Source: Brevibacillus ruminantium (GTDB lineage: Bacteria; Bacillota; Bacilli; Brevibacillales; Brevibacillaceae). From it: a DNA stretch of 64,000 bases. The notes beneath the pieces are model-generated. The model worked only from the letters and a program-made list of their open reading frames with translations, was not told where the DNA came from and ran no database searches. The stretch spans positions 5,295,001 through 5,359,000 of the forward strand of contig NZ_CP098755.1 of assembly GCF_023746555.1 (NCBI RefSeq), written 5' to 3'. The translations under genes were made by a program, and so were the position numbers. Within the stretch, counting starts at the first letter, position 1, and each line of letters begins with the position of its first letter. Below, in pieces: positions 15,711 through 28,249 of this stretch.

Positions 15711-16433
15711 TTACTTCACAGCCACAACTGCATCCAGCGCAATCCGCGCCTCTGCCTCGATCGCCTTTTGTGTAGATTCCGTATGCGGATCATACGTCTC
15801 CAGCAGGTCGGCATCAGCGTAACCATCGATGGCCAGGATGGAACCCGCCCGCATGCCGCGCAGAGCAGAGATGACAAACAGCGCGGAATTCTCCATCTCG
15901 ACGGCCAACACACCCGCCTTTTGGTAGAGCTTATGCGGAAATTCTACCACGCCGCTGTAGAATACATCCAGCGTCAGCGTGATTCCTTCTGCTACAGTAA
16001 GGCCCGTATTGTGGTTCTCAGCCGCTGCGGCCAAAGCGTCGACGACATGGCGATTCGCCAATGCCGGGAATCCAGGAGGAACCAACTGGCTGGTCAATCC
16101 ATCCTGACGCACTGCGGCAGAGCTGATGACTAGACTGCCGGGCTCGATCTCCTTTTGATAGGAGCCAGCGGTACCCACGCGAATAATGGTTTTTACCCCG
16201 CCTTTGGCCAGCTCTTCAAAGCAGACGGCCGCTCCCGGCGAGCCGACGCCGTGACTGACCACCGCCACCTCGGTACCGTTCCACTTCCCTTTGTAGCTGT
16301 GGTACTCGCGGTTTTCCGCGACCAGAGCATGCTCCTCCAGGAGAGAAGCGATGCGGACTGCACGCTTCGGATCACCGCAAACGATGACGCGCTCGGGCAA
16401 TTCTTTGGGGTCAATTTTCAGGTTAGGCAGCAT
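15711..16433 (-). CDS. Nucleoside phosphorylase, uridine-phosphorylase-like
   Basis: The enzyme would split a nucleoside with phosphate into base and ribose-1-phosphate. Motifs of the NP-I (PNP/UDP) family are present: CGDPKRA (phosphate site), HGVGSPGAAVCFEEL, RVGTAGSYQ, the ribose-binding VEMENSALF, and the catalytic-region aspartate in AIDGY. It most resembles uridine phosphorylase, but pyrimidine versus purine specificity, or action on methylthioadenosine, cannot be decided by eye. ATG 16433 follows AAAAGGAG and sits beside the stop of the upstream molybdoenzyme, so the genes are coupled. It lies at the end of the nucleoside-uptake operon. Confidence 0.88.
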   Translation of the reverse strand: MLPNLKIDPKELPERVIVCGDPKRAVRIASLLEEHALVAENREYHSYKGKWNGTEVAVVSHGVGSPGAAVCFEELAKGGVKTIIRVGTAGSYQKEIEPGSLVISSAAVRQDGLTSQLVPPGFPALANRHVVDALAAAAENHNTGLTVAEGITLTLDVFYSGVVEFPHKLYQKAGVLAVEMENSALFVISALRGMRAGSILAIDGYADADLLETYDPHTESTQKAIEAEARIALDAVVAVK

Positions 16434-16434
16434 C

Positions 16435-17097
16435 TCAATCAAACTCCTTTTTCTCCCATTCATCTTCCGGGATCGGCAGTGCCTCACCGGAGAACCGCTC
16501 CTCAAGGAAGGGGTCGCCGTTTAGGTGAAAGCCGTTTTGCTCCCAAAAGCCGGGCTTGTTTTCCGTCATAAACTCAATGCCTCGCAGCCATTTTACACTT
16601 TTCCAGAAATACAGATGAGGGACGATCAGCCGCAGCGGCCATCCGTGCTTTTCTGTCAATGGCTCGCCCTCAAAGGAATGCGCCAGCAGGATATCATCCC
16701 GATCCAGATCGGAGAGTGCCAGATTGGCCGTATACCCGTGATCTCCGTGCAGCATCACGTAGGAGCCGCGAGGTTTTACGCCAATCGCTGCGAGGAAATC
16801 GCGAAAACGGATGCCCTCAAAGCGGTTGCCAAAACGGGACCAGCGCGTGACACAATGAATGTCGCAGGTAAGCATACTTTGCGGCATAGCGAGAAGCTCC
16901 TCATAGCGCAGGGTGACTTCCCGGTCAACCTCGCCAAACACCCGCAGCGTCCACGTCTCCAGATCGTAGTTCGGTACCTCACCCTCGTGCAAAATCGGAA
17001 AGCGCTCGGTCAGCACCTGTCCTGGCGGCAGTCTTTCGGCCAGGGCGGGATCGACGGTCGGCACCTTCATGCGTTTGATTCGCTCTGCTTTGTTCAT
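16435..17097 (-). CDS. Molybdopterin-dependent oxidoreductase, sulfite-oxidase fold (YuiH-like)
   Basis: This is a 220-residue cytosolic protein with the sulfite oxidase catalytic domain only. The Mo-ligand cysteine is in DIHCVTRWS, followed by the pterin-contact pattern LHGDHGYTANL and GWPLRLIVPHLYFWKSVKW. There is no signal peptide and no dimerisation domain. It resembles Bacillus YuiH, whose substrate is unknown. It lies between nupQ and the phosphorylase in the same orientation with short gaps, so it is probably co-transcribed; why a molybdoenzyme travels with nucleoside uptake is unclear. The start follows AAGGGAG. Confidence 0.85.
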   Translation of the reverse strand: MNKAERIKRMKVPTVDPALAERLPPGQVLTERFPILHEGEVPNYDLETWTLRVFGEVDREVTLRYEELLAMPQSMLTCDIHCVTRWSRFGNRFEGIRFRDFLAAIGVKPRGSYVMLHGDHGYTANLALSDLDRDDILLAHSFEGEPLTEKHGWPLRLIVPHLYFWKSVKWLRGIEFMTENKPGFWEQNGFHLNGDPFLEERFSGEALPIPEDEWEKKEFD

Positions 17098-17173
17098 CTG
17101 AGTAACTCCCTTCTGCTGTCAAATCTGTCGATTCCTCCGCAGTGTTTTCTCGTTCAGCACGAACTTGGCAACG

Positions 17174-18094
17174 CTATCTCGTACTTTGCTGGCTAGAGCT
17201 CGCGGATGAGGCGCCTTTGTCCTTCAGGAAGAACATCGCCAGAATGGTCAGTACATAAGGCAGCATCGCGGTAAACTGTGTCGGCAGAGAAAAGCCTTGC
17301 AGACGGATGCTCAGCGCGTCCATCAGTCCAAACAGGAAGCTGGAAGCCAGAATCCCCAGCGGGTGAGACTGTCCCAGCATCATCGCCACCAGTGCGATAA
17401 AGCCGCGGCCCGCCGTCATCCCTTCGGAAAACATGGTGACCTGTCCCAGGGAAAGCTGTGCCCCCGCCATTCCGCACAGCACTCCGCACATGGCTATCGC
17501 CAGCACTTGCAGCCGGGTCACCTTGAGGCCAATGCTGCGCGCAGCGGTGTGGTTCATCCCGACCGCCAAGACCCGGAAGCCGGTCACCGTACGCGTAAAG
17601 AAAAGATGAAGCAAAATGGCAATGAGAAAGGCAAGATAGACAAGCGGCGAGTGGCCGGATAACACCTCTCCCAGCACGGGAACATCACCGATCAGCGGAA
17701 GCTTGAGCTGCGGCAGCCCAGCCATATCCTTATCGTAAAACGCTCCTTTTACATCAAAGACGGCGCGCAGCGCAAACGTCGTCAGACCGAGCGCCAAAAA
17801 GTTGATCGCTACCCCCACGACAATTTCATTGGCTCTCAGGCCAATGGTCATGTAAGCAAACAAGAGCGAGAAAAGCACAGTCACAGCAGCCGCAAACAGC
17901 ACAGCGAGAACCAGGCTTCCTGTAAAATGGTTGCCGACGATCGCCGAAAACGCGCCTACCAAAATCAGTCCTTCCAGACCGACATTGAAGACACCGACTC
18001 GCGAGCAGAGCGCGCCGCCCAGCGCAGCGAGCAAAATCGGCGTCACCATCCGTATCGTGGAACTAACGAGGGACCAATCAAGCAGCTCTCCCAT
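17174..18094 (-). CDS. nupQ: Nucleoside ABC transporter permease, NupQ type
   Basis: This is an inner-membrane permease of the branched-chain/ribose-like family (BPD_transp_2) with about nine predicted helices. Recognisable segments are VGVFNVGLEGLILVGAFSA near the N-terminus and GMTAGRGFIALVAMMLGQSHP near residue 230. It forms the channel with the larger permease encoded upstream, whose end overlaps this gene by 17 bp. In B. subtilis the homologous NupNOPQ imports guanosine. ATG 18094 follows GAGGAGGGAG. Confidence 0.88.
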   Translation of the reverse strand: MGELLDWSLVSSTIRMVTPILLAALGGALCSRVGVFNVGLEGLILVGAFSAIVGNHFTGSLVLAVLFAAAVTVLFSLLFAYMTIGLRANEIVVGVAINFLALGLTTFALRAVFDVKGAFYDKDMAGLPQLKLPLIGDVPVLGEVLSGHSPLVYLAFLIAILLHLFFTRTVTGFRVLAVGMNHTAARSIGLKVTRLQVLAIAMCGVLCGMAGAQLSLGQVTMFSEGMTAGRGFIALVAMMLGQSHPLGILASSFLFGLMDALSIRLQGFSLPTQFTAMLPYVLTILAMFFLKDKGASSASSSQQSTR

Positions 18095-19154
18095 GTTGTG
18101 ACTCCCTCCTCTTGCTCTTGCGATTTTTCCACCAGCTGTACGTAAATTTCGCAGAGATAAACAATATCAATACCGCCTGTATCACACTGGCCAGCTCCAG
18201 CGGCACCTCCGTATTTCGCTCCACACCCATCGCCCCCGTCTGCAGCGCAGCCAGAAGCAGCGAAGTAAAGATCACGCCAATCGGATGAGAATTGGCCAAG
18301 AGCGTAGCCATCAAGCCCGTCCATGCAAAGTTGGGAACCGTCAGCGCTCCTTCTACATAACGGTAATGCGAGCCCAAGACTTCTACTGTGCCGGCAAGAC
18401 CAGCGAGACCGCCGCTCAAAAACATGCTGGTCAGCATCACACGCACTCGGTTAACCCCGCCGTACCGGGAAAAGAACGGATTTTGCCCCAGCATTTTCAC
18501 TTCGTAGCCAAATGCCGTGAACCGGATGACAAAAAAGATCAACAGGGCTGCTGCCAGTGCAAACAGGAAGCCTGCGTGGACACTCATCCCTGGAAATAGC
18601 TTGGGCAGCCAGACGCTTTTCTCCAGCATCGGTGTCTGCGGCATTGCCGCCGAACCGGTTTTATCCTGAAACGGGTCGCTTACCAGGTAGCTGGCAAATA
18701 GGACAGCCACGTAGTTGAGCAGCAGAGAGGATATGAGTAACTGAATCCGAAACTTCGCTTCCAGATAACCGGCAAAAAGCGACCAGAGCCCGCCGGCCAA
18801 TACACCTGTCACCAGTGCGGCAAGCATTTTCACCAAGCCGGGGGCGGGCAGGTAAAGGGCGACCAATGTAGCGCTAATCGCTCCGCACACCATTTGCCCT
18901 TCCGCTCCCAGATTGAACACACCGGCCCGAAAAGCAAGCGAGAGGCCAAGTGCGATCAGCATGATCGGTGTGGCCCGGGCCAACGTCGAGGTGAGGAAGT
19001 AAAAGCTGCCAAAAGCGCCCTTCCACATCTCCTGATAGGTGCCGAGAATCGATTCGCCAACAGCGGCGATGAAAATCGCTCCTGTCAACAAGCCGATGAC
19101 GACAGCCAACAGCGGTTGCACCAGCGACTTAGATAGCTGCTTGATTGCTTCCAT
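18078..19154 (-). CDS. nupP: Nucleoside ABC transporter permease, NupP type
   Basis: This is the larger permease subunit (358 residues) with multiple membrane helices. The family pattern LGLSLAFRAGVFNLGAEGQ is seen near residues 68-86 and LLANSHPIGVIFTSLLLAALQTG near the C-terminus. The start follows CAGGAGG and lies inside the end of nupO (26-bp overlap), so translation of O, P and Q is coupled. Confidence 0.88.
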   Translation of the reverse strand: MEAIKQLSKSLVQPLLAVVIGLLTGAIFIAAVGESILGTYQEMWKGAFGSFYFLTSTLARATPIMLIALGLSLAFRAGVFNLGAEGQMVCGAISATLVALYLPAPGLVKMLAALVTGVLAGGLWSLFAGYLEAKFRIQLLISSLLLNYVAVLFASYLVSDPFQDKTGSAAMPQTPMLEKSVWLPKLFPGMSVHAGFLFALAAALLIFFVIRFTAFGYEVKMLGQNPFFSRYGGVNRVRVMLTSMFLSGGLAGLAGTVEVLGSHYRYVEGALTVPNFAWTGLMATLLANSHPIGVIFTSLLLAALQTGAMGVERNTEVPLELASVIQAVLILFISAKFTYSWWKNRKSKRRESQHGRAA

Positions 19155-20658
19155 GAATGCTTCCTCCTGCCATCAACACGCTGAGTTTCTCTTCGGTCGC
19201 TTCAGAACGCTTCAACTCACCGGCAATTTTTCCTTTGTACATCACCAGAATCCGATCCGACAACGCCAGAATCTCTGTCAATTCTGACGAAACCAGGAGG
19301 ATGCCGTCTCCTGCGTTTCGCTTCTCCAAAAGCGCCTGATGGATGTATTCCATCGCCCCGATGTCGACGCCCCGCGTCGGCTCGGCTGCGATCAAAAGTG
19401 GAGTTTTCTGTCCCAGCTCCCGGGCGACGATCAGCTTTTGCAGATTTCCGCCGGAGAGGTTGCCGGCCAACTCCTTCAAGTGAAGGGAGCCTGTCTTGAT
19501 CGCAAACTGCTCCACCCACTTCTCCACCAGACGGCGAAACGCAGTCCGTTGGATGATTCCGCGTCGATTGTATTCCGGCTTTCGCTGATACCCCATCAGT
19601 GCGTTTTCTTCTACCGACTCCAGTTTGGCCGTCCCCCACAGATACCGGTCTTCGGGGATATGCGCCAATCCCGCCTCGCGAATGGCCGCCACCGACAGAT
19701 CAGTCGTCTCTTTCTCTCCCAAACGGATGCTGCCAGCTGACACGGAGCGCAGTCCGGTGATCGCCTCCAACAGCTCGGATTGTCCGTTGCCCGAAACCCC
19801 GGCAATCCCGACAATCTCCCTGTGGTGGACAGTAAACGACACATCTTCCAGCAGCGTCTGTTTCTCCCGCACGGTCACGCCCTTTACCTGCAGAAGCGGT
19901 CGACCCTCCAAACGTACCCGTTCGCTTAGCTGCTGAAGGTCGCGCCCCACCATCAGACGGGCCAGATCATCTGTATTGGTCTCCTGCCGGGAAACGGTCC
20001 CGGTTACACGTCCGCCTCGCAGCACCGTGATCCGGTCAGCTACCTCCATGACCTCCTGCAGCTTGTGCGTAATCAGAATGACGCTTTTGCCGCTTTCGGC
20101 CAGATGGCGGATCGTTTGCAGCAATTCCTTTACCTCCAGCGGTGTCAGCACGGCTGTAGGTTCGTCCAGCACAATAATGTCGGCCCCCTGGTAAAGCACC
20201 TTGAGAATCTCTACCCGCTGCTGCTCTCCGACTGAACAAGCAGATACCTTCGCATGCTCATCAATCGGAATCCGGTAACGCTCACTCAAAGAGCGGACAG
20301 CCTGGACGGCCTCCTTGCGCTGAAACAGCCCTCTATGCTTTGGTTCGTAGCCGATCACGATATTTTCAGCCACCGTAAAGTCGGCAAACAGCATGAAGTG
20401 CTGGTGGACCATGCCGATCCCCTGCCGAATGGCGTCCTCAGGGCCGCGGAAAGCTACTGCCTTGCCGTTCACCACGATCTCGCCCGAAGTCGGTTGCTCC
20501 ATCCCGTAGAGCATGCGCATTAGCGTCGTTTTTCCTGCCCCGTTTTCCCCGACGATGGCATGGACTTCTCCTTCTTTCAGCGTAAACGAGACGCTGTCAT
20601 TCGCGGTAAAGTCACCATACCGCTTGGTCATGTTCCGCATTTCCAATCGAATCGTCAC
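19129..20658 (-). CDS. nupO: Nucleoside ABC transporter ATPase, NupO type
   Basis: This is a fused double ATPase of 509 residues. The first cassette has Walker [12 protein letters not shown], and Walker [12 protein letters not shown]. The second has a degenerate Walker [14 protein letters not shown], with the signature [15 protein letters not shown] and AAEPTRGVD, as in other ribose/BMP-type ATPases where one site is catalytic. The GTG start at 20658 follows AAGGAGGGGG. It is separated from nupN by 89 bp that hold a strong stem-loop. Confidence 0.92.
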
Positions 20659-20697
20659 AGGCTTCCCCCTCCTTTGCTCGTCTCCTCGGCAGAATAG

Positions 20698-20729
20698 GGA
20701 AACCGACTACTGGCATGTAGTCGGTTTCC
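20698..20729 (-). promoter_or_regulatory. Stem-loop between nupN and nupO
   Basis: A perfect 13-bp stem (GGAAACCGACTAC and its complement) with a 6-base loop lies just after the nupN stop. No T tract follows on the minus strand, so it is more likely an mRNA-stabilising or processing hairpin than a full terminator. Such structures often raise binding-protein levels over membrane subunits. Confidence 0.6.
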
Positions 20730-20747
20730 GTTTATCAACTGCTTCCC

Positions 20748-21779
20748 TTATTGCTTCAACGGGTCGGTTACTGTGCGCGTACCGGCCACGATCTCATCTT
20801 TGATCGCTTTTACCTTGTTCACGATCTCTTCACCAATAAACGGATTCAGCGGAGTCGGGCTGTCGTGCGTCACATAGGTCAGTCCCACACCGTTTTCTTT
20901 CAATCCATAGGCGACAACGCCAGGCTGCAGAGTTCCATCCACAAAAGCCTTCACTGTCTCATACACTGCAGAGTCAGTCCCTTTCAGCTGCGAAAGAACG
21001 ATATGCTCCGGATCGATGTTGGTACGATCTACGTCCTGACCGGATGTGTAAAAGCCTTTTTCTTTGGCAGCTTCAAACACACCGAGATCGCCAACTGCTG
21101 CTGCGCCATAGATGAAGTCTGCGCCCTTCGATGCTTGCAGGAGAGCCAATTCTTTCGCTTTTGCCGGGTCGCTGAAGCTGCCGACATAGTTGATTTGCAC
21201 TTCTGCATTCGGATTGGTTGCTTTCAGCCCTTCCTGAAAACCGCCTGTCCATTTTTTCAGGATCGGAATATCCATGGCGGCGACGATGCCGACCTTGTTC
21301 GTTTTGGTTGCCAGTCCTGCTGCTGCTCCTACCAGATAGGCAGCTTCCTGTTCGCGGAACATGACGCTCCGGACATTGGGCAGATCCACTTGTGTATCAA
21401 TGATCGCAAAGCTGCGGTCAGGGTTTTCAGTCGCCACCTTTTTCAGTGCATCTTCTGCTTCAAAGGAAGAGGTGATAATCAAGTCGTATTTTTCCGCCAC
21501 AGCCACTCGGATATTTTCTTCAATGGCTCCGTGGTCCGTGGATTCGATTGTCTTGACGTCTACCCCGAATTCTTGCGCCGCTTTTTTCGCACCGTCATCC
21601 ATCTGCTGGAAAAACGGGTTGACGCCAATTTTTTCGGGAAGCACCAGGGCGATGCGTTTTTTCGGAGCATCTTGTCCGCCTGCCTGGGCTTGTCCTTTGT
21701 CATCGGTGGCGGTTCCGCCTGTCCCGCATCCGGCTGCCAGCACAGCAAATGTCGTCAATGCCAGTAATAACTTTTTCAT
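20748..21779 (-). CDS. nupN: BMP/PnrA-family nucleoside-binding lipoprotein, NupN type
   Basis: This is the extracellular binding lipoprotein of the importer. The signal ends LAAGC, with the lipid Cys near residue 18. The mature part has the BMP fold (RIALVLPEKIGVNPFFQQMDDGAKKAA, GVDVKTIES and GADFIYGAAAVGDLGVFEAAKE). BMP proteins bind purine nucleosides such as inosine, guanosine or adenosine. ATG 21779 follows TAGGAGAG; the frame is open to a TTG at 21800 but that region contains the ribosome-binding site. The gene has its own PurBox-overlapped promoter and lies downstream of a SAM-I riboswitch. Confidence 0.9.
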   Translation of the reverse strand: MKKLLLALTTFAVLAAGCGTGGTATDDKGQAQAGGQDAPKKRIALVLPEKIGVNPFFQQMDDGAKKAAQEFGVDVKTIESTDHGAIEENIRVAVAEKYDLIITSSFEAEDALKKVATENPDRSFAIIDTQVDLPNVRSVMFREQEAAYLVGAAAGLATKTNKVGIVAAMDIPILKKWTGGFQEGLKATNPNAEVQINYVGSFSDPAKAKELALLQASKGADFIYGAAAVGDLGVFEAAKEKGFYTSGQDVDRTNIDPEHIVLSQLKGTDSAVYETVKAFVDGTLQPGVVAYGLKENGVGLTYVTHDSPTPLNPFIGEEIVNKVKAIKDEIVAGTRTVTDPLKQ

Positions 21780-21868
21780 GATGTCTACTCTCCTATCCAA
21801 ACACCTTCGTATTTTTTATGTCTCTTGAAAGAATATTGCGGTTCACACTGGTTGAAATATTTTCAAAT

Positions 21869-21907
21869 CCGAACATTATTATATATTTTATAAATAATGT
21901 TCGTCAA
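21869..21907 (-). promoter_or_regulatory. nupN promoter overlapped by paired PurBoxes
   Basis: The minus strand carries TTGACG (21902-21907), an 18-bp spacer and TATAAT (21878-21883). The same segment holds two inverted PurR half-sites, CCGAAC at 21869-21874 and GTTCG at 21899-21903. The 24 bases between the CGAAC cores are what two facing PurBoxes with a 16-17-base gap would give. Repression by PurR when PRPP is low is therefore expected. Confidence 0.75.
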
Positions 21908-21921
21908 TACCTCCTCTCAAC

Positions 21922-21948
21922 AAAAAAACTCTTCCCGGAGGAAGAGTT
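21922..21948 (-). terminator. SAM riboswitch terminator
   Basis: The minus strand carries AACTCTTCC, a three-base loop, GGGAAGAGTT and a T run. The 5' arm can instead pair with GAGGAAGAGG at the 3' end of the aptamer, giving the antiterminator of an OFF switch. Confidence 0.9.
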
Positions 21949-21970
21949 GGCTGTATATCGCGAACCTCTT

Positions 21971-22089
21971 CCTCATCTGTCAAAACCCTGTGGGTTCTGC
22001 AGGAATTGGCACCTTTCTGTACAGGAAACAATCCTGTACATTGGTTGCCGGGCTTCATCGGGCCAGTCCCTCCGCCGCTCTTGATAAGG
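21971..22089 (-). promoter_or_regulatory. SAM-I (S-box) riboswitch aptamer
   Basis: Read on the minus strand the element starts CCTTATCAAGAG, continues GGAGGGACTGGCCC, GATGAAGCCCGGCAACC, a variable hairpin, then AAGGTGCCAATTCCTGCAG and closes with GATGAGG. These are the conserved S-box blocks in order, with P1 formed by CCTTATC and GATGAGG. With SAM bound, P1 forms and the downstream terminator folds. The next gene on this strand is nupN, 190 bases further on, with another promoter in between. Confidence 0.95.
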
Positions 22090-22122
22090 TAAGGTGAAAC
22101 TATTTAATTAGATGCTGAACTT

Positions 22123-22150
22123 ATTCTAGCAGAACGAAAGGAAAAAGCAA
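22123..22150 (-). promoter_or_regulatory. Promoter of the SAM riboswitch transcript
   Basis: The minus strand carries TTGCTT (22145-22150), 16 bases, then TAGAAT (22123-22128), a SigA-type pair placing the RNA start about 27 bases before the aptamer. Confidence 0.6.
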
Positions 22151-22173: not shown

Positions 22174-23652
22174 TTAGGATTGTCGCTGAAAGGATTGCTT
22201 CAGCTTCAGGGACAATGCATTCAGTTCGCCAATTTCCTCTGTGATCTCCCGCATTTTTTGATGCTGGTTCTCCGCTGTGGCAAACAATTCCTCCAGATTG
22301 GCAACCGATTCCTCGGTGACAGCCGTAATCGTAGACATCTCTGCAGCTACTTCTCCGGAACGGAGCTTTACCTGATCCATGCTGGTGCGGACATGTTCGA
22401 CCGCCTCCAGGAAAGACTCCATTCCTGCACGCACTGTCTCGATGGATGCCACGGTTTCCACTGCCAGCTCCTGTCCTTTTGCCACGGATGTTTCCCCGGT
22501 GCTCATGTGTTTCACAGCGTTTTCGCTCTCTTGGTGCAAGGATTGCAGGATCTCGGCAATTTCCTGCGTTGCTGTCGCACTTTGCTCGGCCAGCTTTCGC
22601 ACTTCATCCGCTACGACAGCGAAGCCTCTTCCGTGCTCGCCTGCACGGGCTGACTCAATCGCGGCGTTCAAGGCAAGCAGGTTGGTCTGGGTCGCAATCT
22701 GATTAATCGTTTGGACGATTTCCTCCACCCGATTGGCCTGCCGGTTCAATTCCCGAATGGTAGAGGAGGCAACCGTAACAGCCCCTACGATTTGCTCCAT
22801 CTGCCGTGACAGCTCCGTCATCATGCTGATGCTCTCAGCCAGACGGCGACTGTTTTGATCGGCTTCTACCTTCATCACGTTCGCTTGCTGGTTCACCGTC
22901 ACGATTTCCTGATCGATAGACTGTACCTCTTCCTCAATTTTCACCGTGGAGTTAGCCTGAGACTCCATCCCTGTCGCTACTTCTTTAAAGGCGATCATCA
23001 TGTCATCTGTATTGCGCTTGGTTGTCTCAGCGTGTTCGTGGACATGCTCGGTAGTGCGTTCCACCTGCTCTGTGACCAGCTTGATATCGCGCAGCAATTC
23101 AACCAGTCGAAGTTCTTTTTCTTCGGCTTCCTGTCTCGCCCGATTTGCGATGGAAAGGGTTGCTTGTCCAGCCAGACAGAGATACGTCAGCCCAGCAATC
23201 ATCAAAATGAAAGCGACGATGCGCAAAAGCAGATTGACCTCGGTAACCACACCGTCAAACAACTGGTAATAACCGGTGTAAAATCCAACGAGAGTTGCCA
23301 CAATTTGCGCAATTCCTGCGGTTACGATCAGCTTCCAGTCCAGGTAGGCTGCCAGAAAACCGAGGACAATAAAGGCCAGGAAAGAGATCTCCTGAAAGGA
23401 AGTAAAGTGGTCAAAGGCGATAGAGTAATAAAGCAGTCCCGTCCCCACCAGATAGCGAATGATGTAGCTGTCTTTCCGAATAAAATAAAACGGGGAAACG
23501 ATCAGCGTTACCAACAATCCCAGGGAAGTGATTTGCCAAAAATTCACGTCCATCTGGTACGCGATCCAACCCGCAACCCAAAGATGATTCCAAAGAATAA
23601 AGATCATGAAGCCTTCCTTGTCTGTCAAGGTGTTGCGAACCAACCGAATCAT
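22174..23652 (-). CDS. Methyl-accepting chemotaxis protein with multi-helix membrane domain
   Basis: This is a chemoreceptor of about 492 residues without an extracellular ligand domain. The first 160 residues form roughly six closely spaced membrane helices joined by short loops, followed directly by a coiled-coil signalling domain with the hairpin tip [24 protein letters not shown]. No HAMP domain is evident. Such receptors are thought to sense membrane state, energy or a membrane-soluble signal. ATG 23652 follows GAGGGGG; the in-frame upstream start at 23676 lacks a site. Its 3' end lies just outside the SAM riboswitch promoter. Confidence 0.88.
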
Positions 23653-23789
23653 ATGTACCCCCTCATTGCCTGTCATACTGGAGAATTGTTCCTATAATGA
23701 TTATAGACCGAGATAAGTCCCAACGACTACGTATAATGTAAAAATGTGTGAAAAAAGTTCTACTGACCATTTTCTCTGCCTGGGCATAG

Positions 23790-24140: not shown

Positions 24141-25592
24141 TTACAAAGACTTTTTCAGGATATTGCGGGCAATCCATACGCCTGCTGCACCAGCCTGCGC
24201 AAGACCGCGAGTAATTCCGGCGCCGTCACCGCCGCAGTACAGCCCCTTGACCTCCGTCTCAAACTCCTCCGTCAGCTTCGGACGAGCGGAATAAAATTTC
24301 GCCTCCACCCCATAGAATAGGGTGTGTTCGGAAGCAATCCCTGGCGTTACTTTGTCCAGTGCTTCCACCATCTCGATCAGACTCTTCATCGTATTGTAAG
24401 GCAAAACCAGTCCGAGGTCCCCCGGTACCGCTTCCTTCAAGGTCGGCTCCAAAAACCCCTCGCGGATACGCGACGCTGTGGAACGGCGGCCGCGCAGGAT
24501 GTCACCGTATTTCTGAACGATCACACCGCCATTGGACAGATCATTGGCGCGTTTGCAGATTTCACGCGCATACTCATTCGGTTTGTCGAACGGCTCCGTA
24601 AATTTATGCGAGACAAGCAGCGCAAAGTTGGTATTCTGTGACCCGAGTGCCGGATCTTTGAACGCATGACCATTGGCCGCCATGACCCCGCTGTGGTTCT
24701 CGACTACAACGTGACCGGACGGATTGCTGCAGAAGGTGCGTACTCGCGTGCCCACCGAAGTGTTGTAGATAAATTTCCCTTCGTACAGATGTTCATTGAT
24801 CTCTCGCATGACCACATCTGACGTCTCGACGCGCACGCCGACGTCCACCTGATTGTTGTACATTTTCAGCCGGCGCTTTTTCAAAATCCCGGTTAACCAG
24901 GCCGAACCGTCGCGTCCGGGTCCGATCATCACGTAATCACTCTGATACTCTTCGCCGTTTTTCAATACGACGCCTTGTACGCGGTGTCCGTCCTCACCTT
25001 TTACCGTCAGGATGTCCTCTACCTCTGTTTTGAACAGCATGTCGATTCGTTCTTTCAGATATTCATAGATGGATTTCAGAATCTCCAGGTTTTGCTCCGT
25101 ACCCAGGTGACGAACTTCTGCCCGCAGGAGCTTCAACCCGGCTGCATAGCCGCGCTGCTCAATGCTTTTGATCGTCTCCGTCGTCGGGTCTGTAATCGTG
25201 GTGGTAGCCCCGTGCTTCAGGTTGATTTGATCCACGTATTTGATCAGGTCAAGCACTTGGGATGGAGACAGATAATCCGTCATCCAGCCGCCAAATTCGG
25301 TGGTGATGTTAAATTTCCCGTCGCTGTATGCACCAGCTCCGCCAAAACCGGCTGTAATCGAGCAAGCAGGCAAGCATCCGGCAAACTCCTTCTTTCCGGC
25401 TGCCGGCGGGCACAGCTTGATCTTCTCCTCTAAAATCGGGCATCTGCGGGAATAAATATCATGGCCTTTATCAATCAACAATACCTTCGCTTGCGGCGCT
25501 TTCAGCGTAAGCTCGTAAGCTGCAAAAATACCTGCGGGACCTGCGCCTACGATAATCACATCATACTTATTGTTTTTCATCATATTATTCAC
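24141..25592 (-). CDS. NAD(P)/FAD-dependent dehydrogenase of the COG2509 type
   Basis: This is a cytoplasmic flavoprotein of about 483 residues. The FAD-binding Rossmann motif VIIVGAGPAGIFAAYEL lies near the N-terminus, and a second nucleotide-contact segment, GLYCGGDGAGITRGLAQAG, near the C-terminus. A cysteine cluster (RRCPILEEKIKLCPP and GCLPACSITAGFGG) follows the FAD motif. The reaction is not established for this family. The best start is GTG 25592, eight bases after AGGAGG; an ATG at 25598 is too close to the site. A guanine-type riboswitch and a strong promoter lie immediately upstream, tying expression to the guanine pool. Confidence 0.88.
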   Translation of the reverse strand: MNNMMKNNKYDVIIVGAGPAGIFAAYELTLKAPQAKVLLIDKGHDIYSRRCPILEEKIKLCPPAAGKKEFAGCLPACSITAGFGGAGAYSDGKFNITTEFGGWMTDYLSPSQVLDLIKYVDQINLKHGATTTITDPTTETIKSIEQRGYAAGLKLLRAEVRHLGTEQNLEILKSIYEYLKERIDMLFKTEVEDILTVKGEDGHRVQGVVLKNGEEYQSDYVMIGPGRDGSAWLTGILKKRRLKMYNNQVDVGVRVETSDVVMREINEHLYEGKFIYNTSVGTRVRTFCSNPSGHVVVENHSGVMAANGHAFKDPALGSQNTNFALLVSHKFTEPFDKPNEYAREICKRANDLSNGGVIVQKYGDILRGRRSTASRIREGFLEPTLKEAVPGDLGLVLPYNTMKSLIEMVEALDKVTPGIASEHTLFYGVEAKFYSARPKLTEEFETEVKGLYCGGDGAGITRGLAQAGAAGVWIARNILKKSL

Positions 25593-25612
25593 GTTCATAT
25601 CCTCCTCGCAAT

Positions 25613-25665
25613 AAAAAATCCTAACAAGCGAACGGGTATAGCGGGACACCCATTCGTAGTCAGGA
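25613..25665 (-). terminator. Riboswitch expression platform: terminator overlapping aptamer strands
   Basis: On the minus strand TCCTGAC pairs with GTTAGGA (one G-U), and inside it CGAATGGGT pairs with ACCCGTTCG, directly followed by six T and then the AGGAGG of the flavoprotein gene. The left arms are the 3' strands of aptamer helices P3 and P1, so the folded aptamer and this terminator exclude each other. This predicts that ligand binding turns the gene ON. Confidence 0.75.
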
Positions 25666-25718
25666 ATTTACGGTTCCTTGTAGAGACCCTCAAACCTTAT
25701 TTCTGAGGATATACGAAT
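25652..25718 (-). promoter_or_regulatory. Purine riboswitch aptamer, guanine type
   Basis: Read on the minus strand: P1 ATTCGTA/TACGAAT; P2 CCTCAGA/TTTGAGG with loop AATAAGG; junction GTCTCTAC; P3 AGGAA/TTCCT with the canonical loop CCGTAAA; then GACTAC. The core uridines equivalent to U22, U47 and U51 are present, and the specificity base (position 74 in xpt numbering) is C, indicating guanine or hypoxanthine rather than adenine. Confidence 0.93.
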
Positions 25719-25768
25719 TGTTTTCGTTTGCTCTGTTTTGTTGAGTACAGCATTTCACAACAATTTGG

Positions 25769-26669: not shown

Positions 26670-28019
26670 CTATGACGGACGGCCCTCCGCCGTTACATCT
26701 TGCTGTGCCCAGCTCTTTTTTTCCGGGATGATTTGGTTCAGGATCAGTGTCGCCAAAGCACCCACCGTAATATTGGAAGAGAGGATGTAGGCGACGAAGT
26801 CCGGTGCGCCCTGGAGAGCATCCTTGGGCAGTACGGTCACGGCAATCGTCAGCAAGATCGGCAAGCCGATCACCATCATATTGCGATCGTCAATCGTGAT
26901 ATGCTGAATCACTTTGAGTCCGTTCGTGACGATCGCCACGCAGACGATTCCAAAAATACCGCTGATGACAGGTTCAGGGATGCAGGTGATCGCCGTAGAC
27001 AGCTTGGGCACCAATCCCAGCGCGATCAGAATTACTCCCCCTGCCATAATGGCCATCCTGCTGGCTACACCTGTTACGGCGAGCAGCCCCGCGTTGGAGG
27101 AATACCCCGTCATCGGCGTCCCCCCGAACAGAGCGCCCACGAAGCACCCCAGTCCTTCACCGAAGGAAGCACGGTTCAGCCGCTCTTCCGTCAATTCTTT
27201 CCCGGTGATCGTGGAAACGACGAACCACGTACCGGTCGTTTCGATCAAAATAATCAGGTAGACGAACATCATGGTCAAAATCGCACTGATGTCAAAAACA
27301 GGTGCTCCATACGGAAAGAATTTCGGAAGGGAAAACCATGCTGCATTTTGTACCGGGCTAAAATCGACACCGCCAAAAAAGGAAGCTGTCACCGTTCCCA
27401 CTAAAATTGCAATCAGTACGGAAACGAGGCGGAAAAAGGTGCCTGCCTTTCCGACCTTTTGTCCAAGCAGCATACAGGCGACGAGAACCGCTGCCGATAC
27501 AGCCGCCACCAGACTGTTCGTGGCGATATTGCCTTCCGCGTGATAAATGTTGGACATGGCAGTAGGCATCAGCGCAATCCCGACGATGACGATTACGGTT
27601 CCCCCTACGAGCGGCGGGATAAAACGGCGAACGGCCTTCGCAAACCATTTCAACGGATTGCCGATCAGAGCCATCAGCAATGCACCCGGAATGATGCTGC
27701 CGATCATCCCTGCCATTCCCAATTTTCCTCCGATGGCGGCCAAAGCGCCAATCGGTACATATGAAGGACCTTGGACGACAGGCAGGCGAATACCGAAGCC
27801 CGTCTGGATCAGCGTACCGATCCCCGTGGCCAGGAAGCACATTTGGATAAAAAAGGAGGTTCCAGAAGGATCAAGCGCTAATAACCCCGCAATGATAATC
27901 GGCGCAATGTACAAATCCATCGCCAGCACGTGCTGCAAACCGAGCAAAAACGCCTTTCCCACGCTAATCTTGTCATCGACGCCCACCAGCAAACGAACGT
28001 CTTCTCGCTGTTGTTCCAC
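26670..28019 (-). CDS. NCS2 purine/xanthine permease
   Basis: This is a proton-coupled nucleobase permease of 449 residues with about 14 membrane spans. NCS2 signatures are GLQHVLAMDLYIAPIII at the N-terminus, the substrate-site region GTPMTGYSSNAGLLAVTGVASR and the family motif VQGPSYVPIGALAAIGG. It resembles the xanthine/uric acid branch (PbuX, PucJ/K) more than uracil carriers, but the base specificity is inferred. The GTG start follows GGGGAGG. Its promoter region (TATAAT at 28068-28073) carries a PurBox pair just upstream, and it is divergent from a Rieske oxygenase. Confidence 0.88.
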   Translation of the reverse strand: MEQQREDVRLLVGVDDKISVGKAFLLGLQHVLAMDLYIAPIIIAGLLALDPSGTSFFIQMCFLATGIGTLIQTGFGIRLPVVQGPSYVPIGALAAIGGKLGMAGMIGSIIPGALLMALIGNPLKWFAKAVRRFIPPLVGGTVIVIVGIALMPTAMSNIYHAEGNIATNSLVAAVSAAVLVACMLLGQKVGKAGTFFRLVSVLIAILVGTVTASFFGGVDFSPVQNAAWFSLPKFFPYGAPVFDISAILTMMFVYLIILIETTGTWFVVSTITGKELTEERLNRASFGEGLGCFVGALFGGTPMTGYSSNAGLLAVTGVASRMAIMAGGVILIALGLVPKLSTAITCIPEPVISGIFGIVCVAIVTNGLKVIQHITIDDRNMMVIGLPILLTIAVTVLPKDALQGAPDFVAYILSSNITVGALATLILNQIIPEKKSWAQQDVTAEGRPS

Positions 28020-28101: not shown

Positions 28102-28141
28102 AATCGAATGATCTCGACATAAAAAAATATAATGTTCGCGT
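28102..28141. promoter_or_regulatory. PurBox pair in the permease/Rieske divergent promoter region
   Basis: Facing half-sites AAATCGAAT (CGAAT at 28105-28109) and GTTCG at 28134-28138 are separated by 24 bases, the same geometry as at nupN. The second box, ATAATGTTCGCG, is close to consensus and the first has one mismatch in the core. It lies upstream of the permease -10 (28068-28073) and of the Rieske promoter TTGACT/TAAAAT (28147-28152 and 28171-28176), so PurR may act on both genes. Confidence 0.65.
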
Positions 28142-28249
28142 TTTGGTTGACTCCTCTGATCGTGGCAGGCTAAAATAATGAGGGAAATGGCCATGTATCG
28201 CGCCAAAAAAGCAGCAAGAAGTAGAAGAGGGAAGGGTGGCAATCAAAGG

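Follow-up and report, generated by a model that had tools for sequence, protein, structure and literature searches.

A SAM-I riboswitch and a PurBox promoter in tandem ahead of a candidate methylthioadenosine import operon in Brevibacillus ruminantium

Introduction

Why should a riboswitch for S-adenosylmethionine (SAM) stand before the genes of a nucleoside importer? The question is raised by a stretch of 64,000 nucleotides from Brevibacillus ruminantium (assembly GCF_023746555.1, contig NZ_CP098755.1, positions 5,295,001 to 5,359,000; here referred to as the window), in which a SAM-I (S-box) riboswitch and, behind its terminator, a predicted promoter within an inverted pair of PurBoxes precede nupN. 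This gene encodes the substrate-binding protein of an ATP-binding cassette (ABC) importer, and the operon ends with a nucleoside phosphorylase. In our best reading, on which our judgement is evenly balanced, the S-box and the PurBox promoter form a dual-entry control of an operon that imports and cleaves a SAM-derived nucleoside, most likely 5'-methylthioadenosine (MTA). The parts are known, and their combination is new.

The riboswitch in the nupN leader

The aptamer matched RF00162 over the complete model (1–108) and scored 86 bits, where the gathering cut-off is 44.4 (E 5.9e-19). A terminator scan placed the terminator stem at 21948-21927, followed by a T run to 21922. When the leader was folded, the terminator appeared in the minimum-energy structure and the antiterminator in the centroid, and the two are mutually exclusive. 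The fold is unusually stable (z −4.46), and none of 200 shuffles was equally stable. These results bear out the preliminary description of the locus, which had reported a complete S-box with antiterminator and terminator. Moreover, an equivalent antiterminator pairing, with at least seven pairs between the 3' strand of the aptamer's P1 helix and the terminator arm, is present in all 46 S-box leaders that we found among relatives and in the window; in the shuffle control, 0 to 12 of 50 strand shuffles matched the real energy, varying by locus. Upstream of the aptamer, the pattern of the riboswitch promoter (here referred to as promoter P1) occurs in 24 of 24 leaders of the genus, with a spacer of 16 in 23 of them and 17 in one, and its -10 element is exactly TAGAAT in 21.

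The letters of J1/2 and of the P3 internal loop agree with the RF00162 consensus and with the methionine S-boxes of the same genome. The leader shares the aptamer core, the exchange of antiterminator and terminator and the expected ligand, SAM, with the SAM-I leaders of methionine genes, which are transcription-terminating off switches. Unlike these, it precedes a nucleoside-type ABC importer and a phosphorylase, and a second promoter with PurBoxes follows it. The spermidine riboswitch, a SAM-I variant, was rejected as an identification because the binding-core letters are those of the SAM-I consensus; the variant is described in PMC10853860.

Conservation of the S-box with nupN

An S-box was found at 46 of 78 loci with a NupN ortholog, and 18 of the 32 loci lacking it come from one other family. 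The scored set comprises 60 loci, namely 24 from the genus (including the window's own genome), 6 from elsewhere in the family and 30 from a set named genome_contigs, which was gathered with two short peptide patterns and is not an unbiased census. Left out of the 60 were L026 at a contig edge, the presumed genome copies L063-L077, L085 and L104, and the paralogs L116-L122. Absence of an S-box means no match of model R1 under default filters at E up to 0.01 for the 60 loci, or up to 1 for the other family.

Within the genus, 25 of 26 genomes have a NupN ortholog (G014 has none), and every locus with upstream sequence carries the S-box (24/24; L026 is cut by the contig end). The S-box was also present at four of six orthologs in the rest of the family, and at 18 of the 30 kept loci in Neobacillus, Mesobacillus, Metabacillus, Peribacillus and other species of the Bacillus group, which gives 46 of the 60 scored loci. 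The aptamer lies 166–234 nt from the ATG of nupN in the 24 leaders of the genus and 91–234 nt in all 46.

We read the neighbouring genes at 11 loci. They vary between genera, the chemotaxis gene being found at loci of the genus only, and among these 11 loci, with frames judged by eye, no methionine or purine partner gene recurred in the flanks. Since the flanking genes differ, the S-box travels with the operon. Seven paralogous importers (34–40% identity), which are without the two enzymes of the operon, have no S-box. In a quick NupN tree, 20 of whose 64 inner branches are below 80, the S-box state changes at least nine times. Taken together with the leader, we are nearly certain that the operon is regulated by its S-box. 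Aptamer, switch architecture, conservation and operon content are all legible in the sequence itself.

At five loci (L079, L083, L084, L086 and L088) the aptamer is missing and the terminator and PurBox pair are still there; it looks like a loss of the sensing half only. In Halalkalibacter, the operon is directly followed by a frame that resembles, by eye, a second BMP-type binding protein (L103:14300-15307). A wider draw of 398 genomes from the class, with five candidates scored per genome, gave 46 genomes with a NupN ortholog; 18 of them were new, and these 18 are all of one other family. Sixteen loci from one genus of that family (L171-L186, part of L171-L188) have a common but different leader with TTGACAAGGATCGACA. 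No PurBoxes were seen in the 18 leaders of that family by eye, without scoring.

The PurBox pair and promoter P2

The PurBox cores, CGAAC at 21903-21899 and GTTCG at 21874-21870, have 24 bases between them and overlap a second promoter (P2) matching 11 of 12 consensus letters; the spacing is the one given in the preliminary description. This is the sole pair with 10 of 10 letters in the window at CGAA-TTCG spacings of 24–27. The genome has a PurR gene (386.8 bits), so that inverted PurBoxes lie near a promoter in a PurR-bearing genome, and its purE has a 9/10 pair (N27) upstream, just before a promoter-like stretch. The box consensus is that of the B. subtilis type of PurR operator, in which the spacing is usually shorter by one or two bases.

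Genome-wide, the strict pair pattern occurs at 2 places against 1 for a backwards control, and single PurBoxes number 6 against 5. These scans are weak, so the claim is carried by conservation. A rule that asks for at least 8 matching core letters out of 10 and for 26 or 27 bases between CGAA and TTCG, with some calls corrected by hand, was satisfied at 46 of 60 scored loci, and 42 of these have a spacing of exactly 26. The corrections made L058, L059 and L078 negative; L102 is marginal, and L036 counts as positive even though the match scored there lies within the terminator, a weaker pair being visible at the usual place. Both S-box and PurBox pair were found at 37 loci, S-box only at 9, PurBox only at 9 and neither at 5. 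On this pattern, PurR control in addition to the S-box is probable in this species, with PurR presumably binding at nupN.

Two further observations concern PurBoxes. A PurBox-like pair (28105-28148, 9/10, N26) lies upstream of a pbuX-like permease at 26670-28019(-). In L015, whose NupN is 93% identical, the PurBox/P2 stretch is replaced and the S-box alone remains.

Layout of the locus and genes of the operon

The features are collected in Table 1. On the minus strand, a gene for a methyl-accepting chemotaxis protein (22174-23676) is followed by promoter P1, the aptamer, the antiterminator and terminator, the PurBox pair with P2, nupN and five more genes. The preliminary description, whose coordinates are correct within a base or two, had made nupN the only downstream gene on its strand. 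In fact, six genes follow the leader, including one for a molybdopterin-domain oxidoreductase (16435-17097) that was missing from its account of the unit. Between 15500 and 21600, no promoter-like sites turned up on either strand in a consensus scan, against an average of 2.7 in shuffles.

Table 1. Features of the nupN locus in the window (feature, position, strand, basis)
Riboswitch promoter P1	22123..22150	(-)	TTGCTT (22150-22145), 16-nt spacer, extended -10 TGC-TAGAAT (22128-22123); predicted
SAM-I (S-box) riboswitch aptamer	21970..22090	(-)	RF00162, 86 bits, complete model
Antiterminator	21938..21974	(-)	21974-21966 (P1 helix 3' strand) pairs with 21946-21938 (terminator 5' arm); centroid fold
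Intrinsic terminator, 9-bp stem and T run	21922..21948	(-)	terminator scan, fold
Inverted PurBox pair CGAA-N26-TTCG, candidate PurR operator	21870..21903	(-)	10/10 core letters
Promoter P2, TTGACG-N18-TATAAT, within the PurBox pair	21878..21907	(-)	11/12 letters; predicted
nupN, BMP/PnrA-like lipoprotein, substrate-binding protein of ABC importer	20748..21779	(-)	PF02608
nupO, double ABC ATPase	19129..20658	(-)	PF00005, two stretches
nupP, permease	18078..19154	(-)	PF02653
nupQ, permease	17174..18094	(-)	PF02653
Molybdopterin-domain oxidoreductase, sulfite-oxidase/MsrP type, 220 aa	16435..17097	(-)	PF00174, 146.8 bits
Nucleoside phosphorylase of PNP/uridine-phosphorylase type	15711..16433	(-)	PF01048, 147.4 bits

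The molybdopterin gene was present in the operon of all 20 relatives of the genus that were fetched. By-eye inspection of its protein revealed no signal peptide, and Cys82 is invariant across seven aligned rows, the window included. Elsewhere in the window, a purine riboswitch aptamer (25637-25736, RF00167, 72.9 bits) lies ahead of a frame at 24141-25595(-), which by eye is a FAD/NAD-type oxidoreductase and had no NCBIfam match at 1e-10. To our knowledge, this is an unusual target for a purine riboswitch.

Other S-boxes of the genome

Scoring of 150 among 379 candidates from a first look gave 12 SAM-I copies in the genome. Besides the copy at nupN, 11 stand before metH-, hom- (a tandem pair), metY- and metI/C-like genes, metN, metK, mtnK, mtnE, mtnW and a ribose-type ABC importer; the gene names come mostly from reading the translations, mtnK also from its family. 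The tandem pair (L002/L003, G000:C1:2107176-2107469) consists of two SAM-I riboswitches before the homoserine dehydrogenase-like gene.

The binding protein of the S-box-led ribose-type importer (L137:294-4129, G000:C1:438893 onward) matches 5ulb (E 2.1e-56), titled only a putative sugar transporter, and 4ry8 (E 1.4e-53), titled 5-methylthioribose transporter protein (TLET_1677). The importer is probably one for methylthioribose, to judge from these matches. A relative of TLET_1677 thus stands under another S-box of this genome, and the logic common to both operons would be the import of a methionine-salvage compound; the TLET_1677 importer is of the sugar type (RbsB-like), whereas NupN is of the BMP type. 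With S-boxes on methionine, salvage and methylthioribose-type import genes, a shortage of SAM seems to call for the uptake of salvage compounds.

Proposed mechanism

We propose that transcription can enter one nucleoside import-and-cleavage operon in two alternative ways, one controlled by the S-box and the other by the PurBox promoter. On a transcript from promoter P1, bound SAM would keep the P1 helix of the aptamer closed and let the terminator form, so that transcription stops; without SAM, the antiterminator would form and the polymerase would read through into nupN. Promoter P2 lies past the terminator and would be independent of SAM, being blocked by PurR when purines are abundant. The operon would then be turned on whenever either SAM or purines run short (OR logic). 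An operon opened by either shortage would suit a nucleoside that supplies both adenine and a methionine precursor. Once MTA is imported, the phosphorylase would cleave it into adenine and methylthioribose-1-phosphate, and the latter may enter methionine salvage, which is also under S-box control in this genome. Readthrough, the OR logic and the role of the molybdopterin enzyme are inferred.

The preliminary description had likewise suggested regulation by SAM and PurR together with salvage of a SAM-derived nucleoside. The regulatory half holds up (S-box at 46/78 loci, PurBox rule at 46/60, PurR binding being presumed), and the substrate half stays conjectural, a cargo of the MTA class having in our view about equal weight for and against it. 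The fullest form of the proposal would be a dedicated operon for MTA import and processing, possibly also taking its S-oxide for repair by the molybdopterin enzyme, behind a two-promoter gate that opens upon lack of SAM or purines for a cargo that is half methionine and half adenine. This form is tentative and falls somewhat short of an even chance.

What does the importer carry?

NupN matches PF02608 and has the PnrA fold. A structure model places it among nucleoside binders and does not discriminate the substrate. In comparison with the importers of the PnrA/BMP type, i.e., Lbp (7x0r), T. pallidum PnrA (2fqw) and BmpD (6shu), the loop that contacts the base in PnrA and BmpD is changed in NupN against Lbp and against the canonical BMP paralog; moreover, a molybdopterin oxidoreductase and a phosphorylase are encoded together with it, and the operon stands under an S-box.

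The best solved relatives of the phosphorylase are the purine nucleoside phosphorylases (PNPs) of Plasmodium (E 2.2e-37), which use inosine and methylthioinosine. The places of Asp206 (acid/base), Arg45 and Tyr47 and three of five methylthio-pocket residues are common to both. Among 72 aligned rows, which include repeats of the same genomes, Asp206 and the pocket residues Val66, Val73 and Met183 of PfPNP (here Val63, Val70 and Met180) are unchanged in all. Unlike in the Plasmodium enzyme, the place of His7, which meets the 5'-OH, is Asn in 62 rows and Ile in 10, and that of Tyr160 is Phe. The unchanged residues and the replacement of His7 count in favour of the proposed cargo. The Asn4/Ile4 split shows no correlation with the S-box, Ile4 rows being found with and without it. 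No curated model for MTA phosphorylase or nucleosidase was over its cut-off: the best NCBIfam match was uridine phosphorylase (164.4 of 280.3 bits), and the models for the nucleosidase of MTA and S-adenosylhomocysteine (SAH) gave 50.6 of 169 and 34.7 of 73.8 bits.

Several results weigh against the proposed reading. First, in the other family none of the 18 ortholog loci gave an S-box match at E up to 1, although nupNOPQ and the genes for the molybdopterin enzyme and the phosphorylase are retained at all of them; since such operons are complete and lack an S-box, a tie between substrate and SAM is not required. Second, a nucleosidase for MTA and SAH is already encoded in the genome (L126, 283.5 bits). 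Third, the Tyr160 place is Phe (here Phe158) in 72 of 72 rows, and the PfPNP literature describes Tyr160 as important for the methylthio group; according to the same literature, changes of His7 have a mixed effect, since His7Ser favours methylthioinosine and His7Ala does not. Fourth, on the side of control, PurBox-like pairs with 9 of 10 letters occur at eight other places in the window and are not rare, and guaB has one perfect single PurBox and no pair above 7/10. Co-occurrence with mtnK was dropped as evidence, because mtnK is present in 39 of 39 genomes of the order, with or without the operon, and so tells nothing about a link. The orthologs lacking an S-box, the existing nucleosidase and Phe158 call for caution about MTA.

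The alternative that survives best, which we regard as unlikely but serious, is that ordinary purine nucleosides (adenosine, guanosine, inosine) are imported with no sulfur cargo; the S-box would then raise uptake at low SAM because ATP is the source of SAM and adenosine is given back by the SAM cycle. Guanosine, inosine and adenosine are indeed the ligands of the most similar binding proteins with solved structures, and Asp128, Asp249 and Lys266 of NupN, which we take to be the ribose-side places of this family, are invariant. The 32 orthologs without an S-box fit as well. So does Phe at the Tyr160 place, which according to the literature is shared with the PNPs of T. gondii, E. coli and human, that of T. 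gondii (TgPNP) being poor on methylthioinosine. On the other hand, the genome already has a second BMP importer with the canonical motif and none of the 12 S-boxes nearby, the changed base-contact loop sets NupN apart from that paralog and from Lbp, and SAM shortage is a methionine signal for the genes behind the genome's other S-boxes.

Another alternative concerns control. If the two controls acted in series, bound PurR would also block readthrough from promoter P1, which would count only when purines are low too. The PurBox pair does lie downstream of the aptamer, on the path of the P1 transcript, at 37 of 60 scored loci, but such a PurR roadblock is a supposition and nine loci have an S-box without a PurBox pair by the rule; we think this arrangement rather improbable.

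Still less probable is another SAM-derived nucleoside as cargo, such as SAH, 5'-deoxyadenosine or MTA S-oxide, with the molybdopterin enzyme acting before or after cleavage. This idea draws on the sulfite-oxidase/MsrP-type gene in the operons of the genus (20/20 fetched) and of the other family (18/18), and on the three ortholog operons without this gene (L102, L106 and L115), which are also without an S-box. Three loci are few, however, and at 29 loci (11 of the 60 and the 18) the molybdopterin gene is present and an S-box is not; we are also not aware that such an enzyme has been assayed on nucleosides.

Finally, the orphan riboswitch of the preliminary description, i.e., an S-box left behind by a deleted methionine gene and ending in its terminator, is rejected as extremely improbable despite an AGGAGG (21915-21910) that no obvious gene follows, since the S-box is kept ahead of nupN in 46 loci whose flanks vary between genera, the gaps of 91–234 nt are too short for a metabolic gene, and by our rule an AGGAGG-like stretch is followed by a frame of at least 8 codons in only 1 of 24 leaders of the genus (the window's own 14-codon frame, with TTG 2 nt after AGGAGG, misses the spacing that the rule requires and overlaps with P2).

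Significance

In the available text of PMC4958253, the route of MTA uptake in bacteria is left open, the methionine transporter MetINQ being only suggested, and no bacterial MTA importer is named there. The nupN operon is a candidate that can be tested, in bacilli that are easy to grow. If the proposed reading is true, the locus would be a compact natural case in which a metabolite riboswitch and a transcription factor guard one operon through tandem promoters, each control reporting on one half of the cargo. An S-box and a purine-type promoter ahead of a nucleoside-import operon recur in many bacilli, which suggests that these bacteria may recycle a nucleoside that gives both methionine and purine.

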